DNA of 64,000 nucleotides from positions 2,548,501-2,612,500 of the forward strand of contig NZ_CP022121.1 of the NCBI RefSeq assembly GCF_002224645.1, read 5' to 3'. Made by a program: the position numbers and the translations under genes. The stretch is from Dehalobacterium formicoaceticum (GTDB taxonomy: Bacteria > Bacillota > Dehalobacteriia > Dehalobacteriales > Dehalobacteriaceae). The notes under the pieces are model-generated. The model ran no database searches. It was not told the DNA's origin and saw nothing but the letters and a program-made list of their open reading frames with translations. Each line of letters opens with the position of its first letter. Position 1 is the first letter of the stretch. This document shows, in pieces, positions 4,897-14,867 of this stretch.

Positions 4897-5406
4897 ATGG
4901 GAAAGAATAAAAATATTGTTCTGGCTGGGGTTGCTCTGATTGTAATTATCATTGCTGTTTATACTTCTGTTCTTCCGAAGGATCACCAGGAAAATTATGG
5001 GGCACAGCCTAAAACTGCAACTATGAACGCAATCAGCGAAAAGGGAGATTTAGTTATTCCTGTAGCTGATATTACAGAAAAAGCATCATTTTATGCTTAT
5101 AATGGGCAGGAAAACCAGATGGAGATTATTGCAGTAAAGGCATCTGACGGAACAATACGCACCGCCTTCAACACCTGTCAGGTCTGTTATAGTTCGGGAA
5201 GAGGTTATTATGTACAGGAAGGTAATATGTTAGTATGCCAAAATTGCGGCAATCAATTTCATATGGATGATGTCCAGGTTACCAAAGGCGGATGTAATCC
5301 CATACCTATCGATGCTGAGCAAAAAGTGGTTACCGATACATCCATTACGATTACCAAGGACTTTTTAACACAGGCAGAAGAAATTTTTGCTAATTGGAAG
5401 ATTTAG
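4897..5406 (+). CDS. DUF2318-type membrane-anchored metal/Fe-S protein
   Basis: The 169-residue product has an N-terminal membrane anchor (about residues 6-25) and an extracytoplasmic domain with Cys pairs CQVC and CQNCG plus a GGCNP block, the pattern of DUF2318 proteins thought to bind a metal or Fe-S centre. It precedes an HMA/TauE-like protein by 14 bases and both are probably one operon, so a role in periplasmic-face metal (perhaps copper) binding or delivery is inferred. AAAGAAAGGG precedes ATG. A TTCACA direct repeat lies upstream. Confidence 0.75.
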   Translation: MGKNKNIVLAGVALIVIIIAVYTSVLPKDHQENYGAQPKTATMNAISEKGDLVIPVADITEKASFYAYNGQENQMEIIAVKASDGTIRTAFNTCQVCYSSGRGYYVQEGNMLVCQNCGNQFHMDDVQVTKGGCNPIPIDAEQKVVTDTSITITKDFLTQAEEIFANWKI

Positions 5407-5420
5407 TCTGGTGGTGAAAA

Positions 5421-6773
5421 ATGCAACAGTCCGCAGTCCAAAAAACTATAATGCTAGAGGGGCTTTCCTGTCCCGCCTGTGAACAGAAAATAGAGAAAAG
5501 TCTTAAAAAGCTTGATGGTGTTATCGAGGTCAGAGTTGATTATGTACACTCAACCGCGGTAGTCCGTTACAAACCAGGGCAGATTTCTCTTGACACCATA
5601 CAAGAAGCCATTGAAAATGCCGGTTATCCTGTCCTTCACCTGGATACTACAGTGTCACCCGCTCAGGAACAGTCCTCCTACTCATCGATGTTTTTTATCG
5701 GCTTAATAATTGTGGGACTTTATATCATTATCAACAATACTGTTGGGTTTAACTTTTTTCCCCAGGTGAGTTCAAACATGGGATACAGTTTGCTCTTTAT
5801 TGCAGGGCTTTTTACCTCCTTCCACTGCATTGCCATGTGCGGCGGTATTAATTTGTCTCAGTGCATCGGTGACGGTAAATGTGAGAACAGGGCTATCTAT
5901 CATAAGTTCAAACCCAGTTTACTGTACAATCTTGGCCGGGTTAGCTCCTACACCATATTAGGAGGCATTGTTGGGGCATTGGGTTCTCTTTTCACTCTTT
6001 CCCTGCAAGGAAAAGCATTTATTTCTGTTATTGCCGGGGCTTTTATGGTCATAATGGGACTGAATATGTCGGGCATCCTGCCGCCTCTGCGCAGGCTAAT
6101 GCCTCGACTCCCCCAAAGCTTAACGGTTAAGTTAGAAAGTGGGAAACAAGGAAAAACCCCGTTTGTTGTAGGGGTTCTTAATGGTTTTATGCCTTGTGGT
6201 CCTTTGCAGGCTATGCAACTGCATGCCCTGGGCACCGGAAGCTTCTGGGCGGGTGCCTTTTCAATGTTTTTATTCAGTCTGGGTACTGTGCCGCTGATGT
6301 TCGCTTTCGGCGCTTTCAGCTCACTTCTCAGTTCCCGTTTTACTAAGGAAATGATGAAGGTCAGTGCTCTGCTGGTCATTATTCTTGGTATGATCATGGG
6401 AAACCGTGGCTTTTTGTTGTCCGGAATCACCGTAAGTGACGCGCTCCTTTCACCTTTGGGGATCAGCCAGACTCAGAACAACAAGGCCCAGCGTGCTGTA
6501 ATAAAAGATGGTTATCAGAATGTCACCACCCAGCTTGAATCCGGCCGATATCAGCCCTTAATCCTATACGCCGGTGTTCCTGTGAAATGGACAATTGTTG
6601 CCGAAAAAGAAAACTTAAACGGCTGTAATAATGAAATCATTATTCCGGACTATCAGCTACAGCAAAAGCTGTCAGTGGGAGAGAACGTGATCGAATTTAC
6701 CCCAAAAAGACCTGGAATAATCACGTATACCTGCTGGATGGGGATGATCAGCAGTAAAATGACCATTGAGTAA
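5421..6773 (+). CDS. HMA domain - TauE/SafE-like transporter - cupredoxin-like fusion
   Basis: The 450-residue protein has three parts. Residues about 8-75 form a heavy-metal-associated domain with GLSCPACEQ (CxxC) and a typical HMA ending. The middle (about 90-340) is a six- or seven-helix SafE/DsbD-like membrane domain with FTSFHCIAMCGG and the matching GFMPCGPLQAMQ. The last ~95 residues resemble a cupredoxin fold, with Cys and Met near the end (TYTCWMGM) as possible copper ligands. Such fusions occur in copper export or assembly contexts. The upstream DUF2318 gene is presumably in the same operon. The copper assignment is inference; silver or general thiol chemistry is possible. Confidence 0.8.
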   Translation: MQQSAVQKTIMLEGLSCPACEQKIEKSLKKLDGVIEVRVDYVHSTAVVRYKPGQISLDTIQEAIENAGYPVLHLDTTVSPAQEQSSYSSMFFIGLIIVGLYIIINNTVGFNFFPQVSSNMGYSLLFIAGLFTSFHCIAMCGGINLSQCIGDGKCENRAIYHKFKPSLLYNLGRVSSYTILGGIVGALGSLFTLSLQGKAFISVIAGAFMVIMGLNMSGILPPLRRLMPRLPQSLTVKLESGKQGKTPFVVGVLNGFMPCGPLQAMQLHALGTGSFWAGAFSMFLFSLGTVPLMFAFGAFSSLLSSRFTKEMMKVSALLVIILGMIMGNRGFLLSGITVSDALLSPLGISQTQNNKAQRAVIKDGYQNVTTQLESGRYQPLILYAGVPVKWTIVAEKENLNGCNNEIIIPDYQLQQKLSVGENVIEFTPKRPGIITYTCWMGMISSKMTIE

Positions 6774-7331: not shown

Positions 7332-8015
7332 ATGACAGGGAAGCGTATTTTGGTGGTTGATGATGAGCCTAAGATGCGGGAATTGATCTCCTTATATCTT
7401 AAAAAAGAGAATTTTCAGGTAGTCACAGCCGGAGACGGACTTCAGGCTTTAGAGGAACTGGAGAAAGGAGATAACTTTAGTTTGTTTATCATCGATGTCA
7501 TGATGCCAAACATGGATGGCTTTACTTTATGTAAGGAAATCAGGCGTATTTCCCAAAAACCTGTGATCTTCCTCACCGCCCGTGGAGAGGAATACGAGCG
7601 CTTAATGGGATTTGAGATTGGCGCCGATGATTATATTGTGAAGCCTTTCAGTCCCAGAGAGATGGTGGCCAGAGTGAAAGCAGTTTTGAAACGAACAGAG
7701 ACAGCTTTGGAAACGGCAGGAAAACAAACATACGGTGATTTAACAATAGATGTAGAAGGCAGAGAAGTAAAAATTGAGCATGACACCCTGAGCTTAACGC
7801 CCAAAGAATTCGATTTGTTAGTCTATCTGGTAAAAAATCCTGGTAAGGTTTTGTCCCGGGAGCAAATTATGAATCATGTTTGGGATTATGAATACTATGG
7901 CGACCAAAGAACCGTTGATACCCATATTAAAAAACTACGGGAAAAACTGGGGGAAAAAACGGAAAAGTATATTAAAACTGTATGGGGTGTAGGCTACAAA
8001 TTTGAGTTAGAATAA
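7332..8015 (+). CDS. OmpR/PhoB-family response regulator
   Basis: The 227-residue protein has a receiver domain with acidic pocket D10-D11, phosphoacceptor D55 (FIIDVMMP), T82 and K104 (KPF), then a winged-helix DNA-binding domain ending in KTVWGVGYKFE. The gene lacks its expected kinase downstream; only ATGAC just after the stop resembles a kinase start. The histidine kinase at 13119, preceded by a shredded copy of this gene, is the likely partner. TTCACA direct repeats before nearby metal-related genes are candidate targets. AGGAAGGAG precedes ATG; an earlier overlapping ATG hits TGA at once. Confidence 0.92.
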   Translation: MTGKRILVVDDEPKMRELISLYLKKENFQVVTAGDGLQALEELEKGDNFSLFIIDVMMPNMDGFTLCKEIRRISQKPVIFLTARGEEYERLMGFEIGADDYIVKPFSPREMVARVKAVLKRTETALETAGKQTYGDLTIDVEGREVKIEHDTLSLTPKEFDLLVYLVKNPGKVLSREQIMNHVWDYEYYGDQRTVDTHIKKLREKLGEKTEKYIKTVWGVGYKFELE

Positions 8016-8860: not shown

Positions 8861-8909
8861 TGCGTATATATTAAGCCGATTAATTTAATATATACGCAGT
8901 TCTTTTTTT
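8861..8909 (+). terminator. Terminator after the Met/His-rich protein gene
   Basis: TGCGTATATATTAA pairs perfectly with TTAATATATACGCA (14 bp), followed by GTTC and seven T. Confidence 0.8.
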
Positions 8910-8968
8910 CTTTATTTTATTTTGGTTTAGCTAAACATAATTTGCGCAATTGCCAAGGGGTTGATAGG

Positions 8969-9694
8969 GTGGTGCCTTTTAGATTAAAACATCATATTTT
9001 ACAGGCCCAGCAAGGTAACAAGAATATTCGTGAACATCTGATTGCCAAGCATAAGAAATACATTCTCCAAACATGTTCCAGTATCTGCAATAGATATTTA
9101 ACCTGGGAAAATGATGAAGAATTAAGCATTGGCCTATTAGCTTTTAATGAATCTATAGATGCATACGATACTGCCGGTAAAACCAGATTTACAACTTTTT
9201 CTTATTCGGTAATTAAAAAAAGACTGATTGATTATTTTAGAAGTCAGGAGAAATATCATAATGAATTATTAACTGCTTCTGCTGATACTCAGGAGTTTGA
9301 GGTATTAAATAATAAAGAAGCTATAGAAACTTATCAGGAAAATATCTCTTTAGAAAATCTGACGATATTAATTGAGCGCTACAGAATTAAATTAGATGAA
9401 TATGATATTGATATTAATAATTTACCGGAACATTCCCCTAAGCATAGGGATACCAGAGAGACTCTGCAAAATGTCAGCCGGATTTTAATTAATGATCCGG
9501 ACCTTCTTAACCACTTAATTCGTTATAAACAGCTGCCGATAAAACAGCTGATGGTGGCAACAGGTCAAAGCAGAAAGGTCCTGGAAAAGGGCAGAAAATA
9601 TATTATTGCTATTAGTATTATTTTTATTGTGCCAGAGCTTGCTCCATTAAGGAAATTTTCTAAATTTAATATTGATCGGGGTGAGTTAATTTGA
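8969..9694 (+). CDS. sigI: RNA polymerase sigma factor SigI
   Basis: The product (about 241 residues) shows a sigma-70 region 2-like segment (FNESIDAYD, FTTFSYSVIKKRLIDYFR) and a C-terminal part with PIKQLMVATGQSRKVLEKGRKYI, the distinctive SigI ending. SigI factors direct heat- or envelope-stress genes and are held by a membrane anti-sigma factor RsgI, whose gene overlaps this stop codon by four bases (TTGA). GTG 8969 is preferred because AAGGGG lies 8 bases upstream; TTG 8942 has no site. The pair is a transmembrane signalling unit. Targets may include the upstream Met/His-rich protein, which has a SigI-like promoter. Confidence 0.88.
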   Translation: MVPFRLKHHILQAQQGNKNIREHLIAKHKKYILQTCSSICNRYLTWENDEELSIGLLAFNESIDAYDTAGKTRFTTFSYSVIKKRLIDYFRSQEKYHNELLTASADTQEFEVLNNKEAIETYQENISLENLTILIERYRIKLDEYDIDINNLPEHSPKHRDTRETLQNVSRILINDPDLLNHLIRYKQLPIKQLMVATGQSRKVLEKGRKYIIAISIIFIVPELAPLRKFSKFNIDRGELI

Positions 9695-10671
9695 AAAAAA
9701 AACAGCTGATAATTATGTCCATAGATAAGGATTATACGGTTGGGTATACCGAAGATGGTCAATTCGTAAAAATTCCCCAAAAACCTGCCCATCAGGTTGG
9801 TCAGATGATAAATTATCAGCCAACAAAATTCGGATCAAGATACCATAGGGGTTTAGCTGTTGCTACAGCGATTTTATTAGTATTTTTTGCGGGGATTTTT
9901 AGTCCTTTTTTTCAGCAAGAAGCTGCCGCGTCTTATCTGAGTATTGGGCTAAATACTGGAAGCCTGGAAATATGGACTGATCATAATAATAAAGTAATTG
10001 AAACACTATATACTGATTCCCTGGAAAGGTTAAATCAGTTGGAACTCAAAGGGAAAGATATTTATGAGGCTGTTGCAGCTTTAACCGTCGAAGCCAAGAA
10101 ATATGGTCTGATAACGGAAAAGAAAGATGATATTTTATTGGTAAATCTAATAGATATAAAGGAAGACAGCCAACATCATCATGTTTCTGAGGATAAAATC
10201 AAGAAAATAATTTTAGAAGAATTAAATGCTAAAGAATACAAGGGCTTAATGATGATGGAACGTCATGATATGGATTATCTTACAAAAGCAAATGAATTAA
10301 ATCTTACAGCCAGCCAATATCAAGTTTATGAGAAAAGCAGTGCTAAAGGCCATAAGTTAGAAATGGAAAAAATCAAGCACGGTCAAATTCGTTCCGTATT
10401 GGAAGAAGCGGGAACAACTCCGGAGGAAATATTTGAAATGCCAAACAATAATATGCATAATAACACTATGAATAATACCATGCATAACAACAATCATGGA
10501 ATGTCCGCACCCATACCAACACCAAATCAGAATAATGAAACTATTGCACCGGAGCAAAGTAAAGACACAATGCAAGAACAAGAACAAGAGCAAGAGCAAG
10601 ATGTGGAAAGTAATAATCATATGGGTAAAAAAAGTATGCAAATGGATAATTACAATAAGATGCACAACTAA
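9691..10671 (+). CDS. rsgI: RsgI-like anti-sigma factor with Met/His/Asn-rich extracellular tail
   Basis: The 326-residue protein has a short cytoplasmic anti-sigma domain (about 1-55), one membrane helix (about 56-75) followed by the SYLSIGLNTG block typical of RsgI extracellular domains, then a helical region and an unusual tail of about 75 residues with MHN/MNN units, HGM and EQEQ repeats and a final MHN. RsgI proteins bind SigI and release it after an outside signal; in cellulolytic clostridia the outer domain binds polysaccharide. Here the tail suggests metal sensing. The TTG start overlaps the sigI stop, implying translational coupling. A decayed copy of its 3' end lies at 6809. Confidence 0.85.
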   Translation: MKKKQLIIMSIDKDYTVGYTEDGQFVKIPQKPAHQVGQMINYQPTKFGSRYHRGLAVATAILLVFFAGIFSPFFQQEAAASYLSIGLNTGSLEIWTDHNNKVIETLYTDSLERLNQLELKGKDIYEAVAALTVEAKKYGLITEKKDDILLVNLIDIKEDSQHHHVSEDKIKKIILEELNAKEYKGLMMMERHDMDYLTKANELNLTASQYQVYEKSSAKGHKLEMEKIKHGQIRSVLEEAGTTPEEIFEMPNNNMHNNTMNNTMHNNNHGMSAPIPTPNQNNETIAPEQSKDTMQEQEQEQEQDVESNNHMGKKSMQMDNYNKMHN

Positions 10672-10728: not shown

Positions 10729-10807
10729 AAATTGGTCATATTTACATCAAAAATAGTTCAAAATTTGTTGTTATGATGGTATTAAGAAAAAACGAGGAGG
10801 GATTTTT

Positions 10808-11122
10808 ATGAAGAAGGCTTTAGTGTTTTTAGTTATAAGTGCGCTGCTTATCGCTGTTGCCGGTACTGCGATGGCAGCGAAAGGAGAACAGGTTCCGATT
10901 CCTAATTTAGCACCGGAGAAAGTTTATACAGAGCAGACAACAGCAAAAGATGAGAAGGTGCCGACTCCCGAGCCATCCGATCAGGATCTTTATCAACAAA
11001 TGTATGAAGCTTGCCATGGCCCCAATGGATATATGTCAAAATATTTTGGTGAAGGTAATGGTCCACAAGGGTACAGAGGAATGATGGGCGGCTATGGAAG
11101 TAACACTAATAGTAACTTTTAA
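10808..11122 (+). CDS. Secreted 104-aa protein, paralogue of the one at 12558
   Basis: A 104-residue protein with a clear signal peptide ending at AMAA (about residue 24). The mature part has KGEQVPIPNLAPEK, KVPTPEPS, a single Cys in YEACHGPNGYMSKY and a Gly/Met-rich end (GYRGMMGGYG). No known domain is recognised; the lone CHGPNGYM resembles a metal- or haem-binding fragment but lacks a CxxCH. The gene at 12558 encodes a nearly identical protein with a matching promoter region, so it arose by duplication. AACGAGGAGG precedes ATG. Control by the nearby response regulator is inferred. Confidence 0.8.
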   Translation: MKKALVFLVISALLIAVAGTAMAAKGEQVPIPNLAPEKVYTEQTTAKDEKVPTPEPSDQDLYQQMYEACHGPNGYMSKYFGEGNGPQGYRGMMGGYGSNTNSNF

Positions 11123-11668: not shown

Positions 11669-11839
11669 ATGGAGTTGATAATAAACTATGGACCGTATCT
11701 TTTATTAGGAATTTTCTTTTTTATGATGATGAGAGTCGGCGGTTGCTGCGGTGGTCATGGTGGCCATGATGACGGAAAACAGAATAATAATAAAAACACA
11801 TTAAAAAGAGCTGTCTCTGAGGCAGAGAGGAGTGAATGA
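11669..11839 (+). CDS. 56-aa small membrane protein with CC/HGGH motif
   Basis: The peptide has a hydrophobic N-terminal helix followed by MMMRVGGCCGGHGGHDDG and a charged tail. Met, Cys and His clustered just after a membrane helix suggest metal binding. It resembles very short membrane proteins found beside SHOCT proteins and copper genes, but I cannot name a family. AAAGGGG lies 11 bases before ATG. Its stop overlaps the start of the next gene by four bases (ATGA), so the two are translationally coupled. Confidence 0.6.
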   Translation: MELIINYGPYLLLGIFFFMMMRVGGCCGGHGGHDDGKQNNNKNTLKRAVSEAERSE

Positions 11840-12075
11840 GCATGATGGGTTACGGAATGATGGGCTATGGCATGGCAGTAGCCATGTTCTTATGGTGGGC
11901 CATACTCTTGGGTGGAATATTCCTAGGGTGTTATGGAATAACACTTTTAATTCGTAATAAAAATAATACCACCAACAGTAACGAAGCCTTGGAAAAATTA
12001 AAGGTGCGCTATGTTATGGGTGAAATTTCCCAAGAGGAATATACGGAAAAAAAGCAATTGTTACAGGTTAAATAA
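11836..12075 (+). CDS. SHOCT-domain small membrane protein
   Basis: The 79-residue product begins with MGYGMMGYGM, has one or two membrane helices (about 12-40) and ends with a SHOCT-type helix pair (ALEKLKVRYVMGEISQEEY). SHOCT motifs are short oligomerisation modules, often at the C-terminus of small membrane proteins with Met-rich starts in copper or efflux loci. The ATG overlaps the preceding stop, and GAGAGGAG supplies the ribosome site. Function in the metal block is inferred from context. Confidence 0.8.
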   Translation: MSMMGYGMMGYGMAVAMFLWWAILLGGIFLGCYGITLLIRNKNNTTNSNEALEKLKVRYVMGEISQEEYTEKKQLLQVK

Positions 12076-12182
12076 ATTGTTAAACAGCACATTGGACTAA
12101 GTGTTCTTAGAAATGCTTAAAATACAGATCAACTGTTTTATAACGATGGTGGCAGCCATTCGGAAAAAAGGAGGAAATGATT

Positions 12183-12476: not shown

Positions 12477-12557
12477 AAATTGGTCATATTTTAATCGAAA
12501 ATATTTCAAAACTTATTATTATAATAGTACTTAAGAAAAAACAAGGAGGAATTTATT

Positions 12558-12872
12558 ATGAAAAAAGCTTTAGTATTTTTAGTTATCAGTGCACTGCTTA
12601 TCGCTGTTGCCGGTACTGCGATGGCAGCGAAAGGGGAACAGGTACCGATTCCTAATTTAGCACCGGAGAAAGTTTATTCAGAGCAGACAGCGGCAAAAGA
12701 TGAGAAGGTGCCGACTCCTGAGCTATCCGATAAGGATCTTTATCAACAAATGTATGAAGCTTGCCATGGTCCCAATGGATATATGTCAAAATATTTCGGT
12801 GAAGGTAATGTTCCACAAGGGTACAGAGGAATGATGGGCGGCTATGGAAGTAACACTAACAGTAACTTTTAA
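12558..12872 (+). CDS. Secreted 104-aa protein, second paralogue
   Basis: Nearly identical to the product at 10808; only a few residues differ (for example Leu for Pro in the PELS segment and Val for Gly before PQGYRG). It has the same signal peptide, single-Cys YEACHGPNGYM block and Gly/Met-rich tail. The upstream operator and the downstream hairpin region are duplicated as well, so the copy is a tandem segmental duplicate and recent enough to keep silent-site similarity. AACAAGGAGG precedes ATG. Function unknown. Confidence 0.8.
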   Translation: MKKALVFLVISALLIAVAGTAMAAKGEQVPIPNLAPEKVYSEQTAAKDEKVPTPELSDKDLYQQMYEACHGPNGYMSKYFGEGNVPQGYRGMMGGYGSNTNSNF

Positions 12873-13118: not shown

Positions 13119-14867
13119 ATGACAGGAAGTATTGTCCTAAAATTATGGCTAACTATTGTGTTGTTAATCATCGTGGTTTTTATTGCCCTAGGCTTGGGTT
13201 TATTTCAGGCTGTGGAGAATTTTTATTACACGCAAATCGCTGCCGGACTTATTAACCAGGGTCAGGAAGTTGCTGATATGTATGCCAAGAATCCGGCTGA
13301 ATTTCAAGAAAACAATGAGATTGAATATGTGTCCCGGATTATGAATGCCCATCTAATGATTTTAAATAAAGAAAGCATTATTCAGACCTGTAACCAAATG
13401 ATGCCCATGACACCCGGGTCCTTATTTGAAGAGAATGATCTGGACCGAATTTTCACCGGTGAAACAGTAGCGAAAAGAGGTTTTCATCATTCATTTAATA
13501 ACCAAATGTTATCTATCGGCCTGCCAATTATTCAGGACAAAAAGATTGAATCTGCCTTGTTTATTTATACTCCCATAGCTTCTCTGGAACCTGCCTTGAA
13601 TACTATTCGGGGAATCATTTACTGGAGTTTATTTTTTGCCGTTATTTTAATTTCGATTTTAGCTTTTTTCCTTTCCCGCACTTTGTCGAAACCCCTGATC
13701 CAAATGAATAAAGTTGCCTTAAATCTTGCTGAAGGAGATTACAGCCAGCGTGTGCCGGTAAAAAGCGTTGATGAGGTTGGCATCTTGGGGGCATCATTAA
13801 ATTTCCTTTCGGAACAGCTAAAGAAAAACATCACTGAACTATCATATGAAAAGGAACAGATTGAAAATATCCTAAAAGGTATGTCTGATGGAGTTATTAC
13901 CTTTGATACTACAGGTAAAATAGTTCTTTTTAATCCTCAAGCTAAAGAACTGCTTGATAATTGTGTGGAGGTGGAAAAAAATAACATAATGGAGCATTGC
14001 GATTATCTGACTCAGCTTAACTCCTTATATCAGCGAACTCTGGAAACAGGAAATTTGGTAGAAGGGGAAATCACTGTTAATGAAAAAATTGTTTCTGCCA
14101 AGCTTTCCCCATTGCTGGACGTAACTGATCGAAACCTAATCGGAGTGGTCACGGTACTCCAGGATGTAACCAAGGATAGAAAACTGGAGGAGATGCGCCG
14201 TGATTTTGTCGCTAATGTCTCCCATGAATTAAGAACACCCATTAGTTTGATCCAGGGTTATTCTGAGGCAATTATTGACGATGTTGCCGAATCCCCAGAG
14301 GAGCGGAATGGTTTTATTAAAGTTATTCTTGAGGAAGCCAACAGATTGAAACGGTTGGTGGAAGATCTTTTGGAATTGTCTCGGCTGCAATCAGGTGTAA
14401 TATCGATCGAGAAAGAATGGATTGATATTAGGGAGGTACTTCTGCAGGTAAAGACTAAATTCCAGTCATTGCTGGAACAAAACAAAATAGATTTTCAGGC
14501 AGAAATAGCATCGGATGCTCCATGTCTTTTGGCCGACCGCTTTAGATTGGAACAATTATTAATTAACTTAATAAGTAATGCGATCCATTTTGCGGCCGGG
14601 AAGACTATTAAGGTAACGTCACGAAAGCTGGAAAACGGTATTGAGCTGAGTGTCAGTGATACAGGACAGGGTATTCCGGAAAAAGATCTTCCATTTATCT
14701 TTGAAAGATTTTATCGTGCGGAAAAATCCCGGAACAGGGAAAGCGGGGGGACAGGTATTGGTCTTTCTATCGTTAAAAATATCGTAGAGGTTCATGATGG
14801 AGCGATTACCGTGATGAGCAAAGAGGGAGAAGGGGCCACATTTAACATTATGTTTCCAAGCAAATAG
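13119..14867 (+). CDS. Membrane sensor histidine kinase (HAMP-PAS-HisKA-HATPase)
   Basis: The 582-residue kinase has a first membrane helix (about 8-30), an extracellular sensor region to about 165 containing Met and His (NQMMPMTPG), a second helix, a HAMP domain, a PAS domain, HisKA with VSHELRTP phosphoacceptor His, and an ATPase domain with N box (NLISNAIHF), DTGQGIP and GGTGIGLSI. It resembles PhoR/WalK-type kinases. Immediately upstream is a relic of a regulator gene, so the original operon was regulator-kinase; the surviving regulator at 7332 is the probable partner. The Met-rich sensor region fits a metal stimulus, but that is a guess. Confidence 0.92.
   Translation: MTGSIVLKLWLTIVLLIIVVFIALGLGLFQAVENFYYTQIAAGLINQGQEVADMYAKNPAEFQENNEIEYVSRIMNAHLMILNKESIIQTCNQMMPMTPGSLFEENDLDRIFTGETVAKRGFHHSFNNQMLSIGLPIIQDKKIESALFIYTPIASLEPALNTIRGIIYWSLFFAVILISILAFFLSRTLSKPLIQMNKVALNLAEGDYSQRVPVKSVDEVGILGASLNFLSEQLKKNITELSYEKEQIENILKGMSDGVITFDTTGKIVLFNPQAKELLDNCVEVEKNNIMEHCDYLTQLNSLYQRTLETGNLVEGEITVNEKIVSAKLSPLLDVTDRNLIGVVTVLQDVTKDRKLEEMRRDFVANVSHELRTPISLIQGYSEAIIDDVAESPEERNGFIKVILEEANRLKRLVEDLLELSRLQSGVISIEKEWIDIREVLLQVKTKFQSLLEQNKIDFQAEIASDAPCLLADRFRLEQLLINLISNAIHFAAGKTIKVTSRKLENGIELSVSDTGQGIPEKDLPFIFERFYRAEKSRNRESGGTGIGLSIVKNIVEVHDGAITVMSKEGEGATFNIMFPSK

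Follow-up and report, generated by a model that had tools for sequence, protein, structure and literature searches.

The window analysed here, a 64,000-nt stretch of the Dehalobacterium formicoaceticum genome, carries a sigI-rsgI operon set among genes for secreted, membrane and regulatory proteins (Table 1). The SigI/RsgI pair recognised at 8969-10671 in the preliminary description was borne out by Pfam, which detected Sigma70_r2 in the product of sigI (E 2e-6) and both RsgI_N (residues 7-42, E 1e-7) and RsgI_M (residues 81-215, E 3e-9) in the product of rsgI. Region 4 gave no Pfam match in the window SigI; from end to end the protein could be aligned with SigI orthologues, to which it is 39-49% identical. 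The ORF enclosing sigI spans 8942-9694, and, judging by the AAGGGG directly 5' of it, the GTG at 8969 is most likely the start codon. The TTG start of rsgI overlaps the stop codon of sigI, its cognate gene immediately upstream.

Table 1. Coordinates of the sigI-rsgI operon and of associated features in the window
Feature	Position	Strand	Basis or remark
HMA - DsbD_2 - cupredoxin-like membrane protein, heavy-metal domain	5421..6773	+	Pfam
OmpR-type response regulator	7332..8015	+	Pfam
SigI-type promoter (putative), CCCCAAAA-N14-CGAA	8221..8246	+	64 nt 5' of the 8311 ATG
Secreted partner, 164 aa	8311..8805	+	signal peptide, then Met/His-rich C-terminal part
Intrinsic terminator, 15-bp stem and T run	8861..8898	+	between partner gene and sigI; z -4.8
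sigI, sigma-I factor	8969..9694	+	GTG start, Pfam, ortholog alignment
rsgI, anti-sigma-I factor	9691..10671	+	TTG start, Pfam, predicted model
Asn88-Thr89, place of the canonical Asn-Pro bond	9952..9957	+	alignment and predicted model
Met/His/Asn-rich RsgI tail	10438..10668	+	residues 250-326, predicted disordered, pLDDT 43-58
Small SHOCT-domain membrane protein	11836..12075	+	Pfam
Sensor histidine kinase	13119..14867	+	Met/His-bearing extracytoplasmic loop

The predicted model of RsgI contains a single membrane helix (about residues 55-69), a periplasmic domain (residues 81-247) and the C-terminal tail. In a Foldseek search, the nine best matches were all RsgI periplasmic-domain structures (E 6e-7 to 3e-5, TM 0.62-0.71 on target), headed by 8t9n, the GGG mutant of Bacillus subtilis RsgI. 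As modelled, the window protein keeps the RsgI/SEAL-type periplasmic fold and joins it to a disordered tail. Pfam found no C-terminal carbohydrate-binding or hydrolase domain in it. The second SigI/RsgI pair of the host genome (L001) is canonical, with an Asn-Pro bond and a Lys-rich tail.

The 77-residue tail comprises 10 Met, 5 His and 18 Asn, and its Met+His content of 19.5% was reached by none of 1255 other 77-aa stretches, sampled outside the tail from window ORFs longer than 150 aa. Among 84 RsgI of the phylum it ranks fifth by Met+His, the four higher ones being its nearest relatives. The tail had been described as Met/His/Asn-rich; Met and His proved to be the informative residues, both co-varying with the composition of the secreted partner (see below), and Asn was rejected as a signature residue since it shows no such co-variation (r 0.16). 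Of the proposed likeness to copper/silver-binding stretches, the Met/His richness stood; SilE-like motif spacing was rejected, as MH dyads are present and MxxH/HxxM spacing is absent.

Directly 5' of sigI lies the gene of a secreted protein, the 8311 protein, whose mature part contains 17% Met+His. Its resemblance to the tail, noted earlier as one of motifs, was confirmed as a Met/His-rich composition common to both. By motif count it contains three HxxM, four MxxM and no MxxH. Pfam gave no significant match for it; homologues are encoded at 9782-10135 of L037 (E 1.5e-12) and at 5215-5703 of L123 (E 1e-8). The SigI-type promoter upstream of this gene is one of five exact matches to the strict pattern in the 3.77-Mb genome, where the reversed-pattern control gave ten, and it is the only well-placed one; the other four were rejected as SigI promoters, having no plausible target downstream. 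We therefore claim no genome-wide regulon, and since the motif alone does not exceed chance across the genome, the promoter argument rests on placement and conservation. Among loci of the clade defined below, the pattern CC-N0-2-AAA-N14-16-CGAA occurs 5' of 33 of 54 sigI genes and of 15 of 43 genes for Met/His-rich or DUF2680 secreted proteins, compared with 13 of 657 other genes of the same loci, and seven of these 13 also code for small secreted proteins. In the ten-row group that contains the window, a SigI-type promoter precedes every identified partner gene (window, L037, L039, L040, L044, L123, L124 and L134). SigI thus probably drives the secreted partner gene. No SigI-type promoter was found directly 5' of the window sigI.

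A search for RsgI homologues with MH-rich tails, suggested in the preliminary description, uncovered a whole clade, 55 of 149 RsgI. RsgI loci were taken with their surroundings from 398 genomes of the phylum; a single-protein scan of genome contigs gave no close relatives. For 80 further loci, a named set from GTDB species genomes, SigI served as the query because RsgI diverges too fast. The first tree, built from 84 concatenated SigI+RsgI rows under the C20 mixture model with the tail and cleavage columns left out, placed the window inside an 18-row clade (SH-aLRT 98). In the second tree (149 Bacillota RsgI rows) it fell into a 55-member clade (SH-aLRT 99), within inner groups supported at 100 and 99. 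The members are largely Desulfosporosinus/Desulfotomaculum-like anaerobes, among them Desulfosporosinus metallidurans (several copies), D. lacus, D. nitroreducens and Desulfotruncus arcticus, together with Paradesulfitobacterium ferrireducens, Peptococcaceae BRH_c8a and Soudan-mine Clostridiales. D. metallidurans has at least four SigI/RsgI pairs of the clade (L130, L131, L136, L145). The open-licence papers searched contained no description of this RsgI branch and no link between RsgI and copper sensing.

Median tail Met+His was 11.4% in the clade versus 2.3% outside it (Mann-Whitney p 1.5e-14; such p-values, like the Fisher tests, ignore shared ancestry and are descriptive). Low values were found in a Desulfosporosinus group (L137, L140) and in L148 and L141, and members such as L137, L140 and L148 may sense another stimulus. 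In some sub-branches Cys/Gly/Trp-rich or His/Thr/Pro-rich tails stand in place of Met/His-rich ones. Orthologues without a tail, which the preliminary description had regarded as telling against metal sensing if function were otherwise conserved, are confined in the ten-row group to Desulfotruncus arcticus (L125), and there the adjacent partner is lost too. Bacillota MES5 (L122) keeps the tail with no recognisable partner nearby.

In canonical RsgI, self-cleavage takes place at an Asn-Pro bond that joins strands one and two of the periplasmic domain, as reportedly described by Chen 2023 and Brogan 2023. In the window RsgI the corresponding Asn88-Thr89 lies in the predicted turn between beta1 (residues 81-87) and beta2 (residues 90-96). 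In the PDB search, the matched second chain of RsgI6, 8her_B, reads SIELW from its residue 2 and so begins just after the bond, in agreement with cleavage there. Aligned sequences contain Asn-Pro in 2 of 55 clade members (it is missing from 53) as opposed to 91 of 94 other RsgI. At Asn-Thr or Asn-Ser, some slow cleavage might persist. Outside the clade, Asn-Pro has also been lost in L050, L101/L103 and L175 (His-His, Asn-Ser and Gly-Pro, respectively), apparently independently. In the known signalling model, autocleavage precedes intramembrane proteolysis, and a clade that keeps the fold without the cleavage bond makes cleavage-independent RsgI signalling directly testable. The question of such signalling already arises from RsgI8 and from cleavage mutants of B. 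subtilis RsgI. The RsgI periplasmic domain autocleaves and its strand beta1 separates; Clostridium thermocellum RsgI8 is reported to lack both self-cleavage and a distinct carbohydrate-binding domain, and B. subtilis RsgI with a blocked site partly retains signalling (PMC12203970).

We compared the surroundings (up to 5 kb from rsgI) of 52 clade loci with those of 89 other loci, with a simple hydrophobicity criterion to predict signal peptides and TM segments. Met/His-rich secreted proteins were encoded at 23 of 52 clade loci and at none of the 89 others; for DUF2680 secreted proteins, found with an HMM made from Pfam-confirmed members, the counts were 18/52 and 2/89. P1B metal ATPases (9/52 versus 1/89), a response regulator with a kinase (19/52 versus 2/89) and SHOCT small membrane proteins (18/52 versus 0/89) were likewise more frequent in the clade. 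The window lacks a P1B ATPase, as do most clade loci within the 5 kb surveyed. Across nine divergent pairs, Met+His of the kinase loop followed Met+His of the tail (rho 0.73, p 0.025). Together with the trees, these data strongly support a distinct SigI/RsgI branch in which Met/His-rich tails go together with Met/His-rich secreted proteins, with metal ATPases and with two-component sensors that bear Met/His in their loops. A metal-sensing branch of the system had been suggested from motifs that resemble copper/silver-binding stretches; the distinct Met/His-tailed branch is upheld by tree and neighbourhood, and the copper/silver specificity is not, because the linked ATPases include, by eye from conserved motifs, both Cu-type (L037, L052, L156) and Zn/Cd-type enzymes (L038, L042, L037, L130, L140). 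A copper-specific reading was rejected as too narrow.

The regulator and kinase genes of the window lie 5 kb apart with the sigI-rsgI island in between; in the orthologous loci L040, L044 and L042 the two are adjacent. DUF2680 (PF10925) secreted proteins hold the partner position in a sister part of the clade. Their genes adjoin or diverge from sigI at L038, L041, L047, L066, L082 and L142, several of them with a SigI-type promoter. We found no functional paper on DUF2680 in the open-licence literature.

To compare each tail with its partner, pairs were chosen blind to composition, the partner being a gene with a SigI-type promoter, or a signal-peptide gene within 450 nt 5' of sigI, with a product of at most 260 aa; 20 divergent pairs, separated by more than 0.6 changes per site, were used. 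With the mean removed, tail composition was correlated with the composition of the cognate partner (mean r 0.36), a value reached by none of 3000 shuffles (sd 0.06). The same tails correlated hardly at all with the remaining secreted genes of the locus taken together (r 0.07, p 0.17), with pooled long ORFs (r 0.11) or with their own periplasmic domains (r 0.13), and genome composition was rejected on these controls as the cause of the match. Residue by residue, the correlation was strong for Trp (0.83), Cys (0.80), Met (0.76) and His (0.58); values for other residues included Ser 0.60, Pro 0.39, Gln 0.34 and Asn 0.16.

This matching bears on whether the system is in decay, that is, whether the pair is degenerate or SigI unregulated while the tails drift. 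The lost cleavage motif, the highly variable length and sequence of the tails and the absence of both tail and partner at L125 would fit such decay. The clade is nevertheless large and intact, with conserved domain make-up, operon and promoter, and the tails cannot be drifting freely since they track their partners; we regard decay as very improbable.

Our preferred explanation, held with moderate confidence, is that the window pair belongs to a distinct SigI/RsgI clade whose predicted signal is an extracytoplasmic soft metal ion. We infer a soft metal ion as the common ligand because the matching residues are the usual ligands of Cu(I), Ag(I) and Zn and because metal ATPases are enriched. Ag+ binding by residues of this kind is known from SilE, which is extracytoplasmic, disordered and Met/His-rich (PMC5008109). 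Alternatively, the tail could gauge the secreted partner itself, or its absence, through like-with-like low-complexity contacts; RsgI would then report how much partner is in the wall, and so feed back on the production of a cell-surface protein with no metal involved. This would agree with the SigI-type promoter on the partner gene, with the correlations of Ser and Pro, and with tails that match partners even where metal ligands are few, as in L136 (Thr/Pro/His/Val) and L144 (His/Thr/Pro). Such a feedback seems unlikely to us, as the strongest matches are those of Met, His, Cys and Trp and not of Gln, Asn, Asp, Glu or Lys, and it predicts neither the enrichment of P1B ATPases nor the Met/His-bearing kinase loops.

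A further alternative is a general envelope-stress RsgI resembling that of B. subtilis, with a tail that reads wall integrity, incidental Met/His and partners acting as Spy/CpxP-like chaperones. DUF2680 proteins, present at 18 of the 52 clade loci and in one case weakly LTXXQ-like (Spy/CpxP-like), are consistent with it, as is B. subtilis RsgI, whose extracellular part senses wall defects (PMC10202637) and which signals partially without autocleavage (PMC12203970). It accounts poorly for the association with metal ATPases, for the matching of ligand residues and for Met/His-rich secreted neighbours being confined to the clade (0/89 at other RsgI loci), and we think it quite improbable.

If a soft metal ion is the signal, the following sequence of events can be envisaged. 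RsgI would keep SigI at the membrane until its tail binds metal, for which the secreted partner would compete. The loaded or folded tail might then expose RsgI to a site-1 protease, or free another restraint; we propose metal-driven exposure to the protease because the self-cut bond of canonical RsgI is absent. Intramembrane proteolysis would follow and release SigI, which would transcribe the partner gene and, by terminator read-through, sigI-rsgI. With the terminator 5' of sigI in the window, one promoter could yield much partner and little sigma factor. In the wall space the partner would serve as a sponge for the metal, and by taking it up would empty the tail and end the response.

More tentatively, we suggest that the sensor tail co-evolves with the secreted protein of its own regulon as a ligand-matched pair, in which the Asn-Pro trigger has been replaced by ligand-driven folding and regulated proteolysis. 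The tail would then be a membrane-tethered counterpart of the sponge, the two competing for one ion, and sub-branches might have been retuned to different ligands (Met/His, Cys/Gly, Trp/Gln, His/Thr/Pro). Since sensor tail and regulated product co-vary, an unusual case, the type of ligand may be readable from sequence. If metal sensing is correct, SigI/RsgI would serve not only to sense polysaccharides and the wall but also in the metal homeostasis of anaerobes, Desulfosporosinus among them.

The closest fold match is B. subtilis RsgI with its SEAL domain, also an extracellular sensor of a cell-surface signal, which differs in that its signal is a wall defect. Its wild-type form carries the canonical Asn-Pro site, and we know of no Met/His tail or partner for it. 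With the carbohydrate-sensing pairs of C. thermocellum (RsgI1, 2, 6 and 9) the window shares the sigI-rsgI operon, RsgI_N, the single membrane helix, the periplasmic fold (Foldseek 8hdj, 8heq, 8her, 8u9o) and A-tract/CGWA promoters. In contrast to them, the window RsgI has no carbohydrate-binding domain and carries Asn-Thr for Asn-Pro, and only the window has the Met/His-rich disordered tail and the paired secreted gene. For C. thermocellum RsgI8, no Met/His tail or secreted partner is reported (PMC12203970). SilE/PcoE resemble the tail and the 8311 protein in being extracytoplasmic, disordered or of low complexity, and Met/His-rich (PMC5008109). However, we detected no homology of SilE/PcoE to the 8311 protein, which has no Pfam match and lacks the SilE repeat MxxHxxxxxHxxM as well as repeated HxxMxxxHxxM motifs; unlike them, it is apparently SigI-driven, and a tail of the ligand type is fused to the anti-sigma factor.

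Several further genes lie close to the operon or to its orthologues. Upstream of the regulator, at 4897-6773, an FtrD-like protein is followed by the HMA-DsbD_2-cupredoxin-like fusion; the two are likely a metal or thiol trafficking pair, and the fusion protein is possibly a member of the same metal neighbourhood. Downstream of rsgI, a small secreted Gly/Met/Tyr-rich protein (GYRGMMGGYG) is encoded in two copies (10808-11122 and 12558-12872). The duplicated DNA (10803-11102 and 12553-12852) is 94% identical over 300 nt, its copies 1750 nt apart, and the 114-nt regions 5' of both are 81% identical. Between the two copies lie the SHOCT gene, a gene at 11669 for a short Cys/His-rich membrane protein and, at 12177, a lone hypC. 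Near Met/His-tailed RsgI of other loci we also observed a polytopic 4Fe-4S membrane protein (L040 811-2148, L044 2797-4131, L068 10867-12243), with Fer4_5 in L044 and NapH/NosR-like by eye. At L044 and L068 its neighbour is another protein of Met/His-rich or YtkA-like type.
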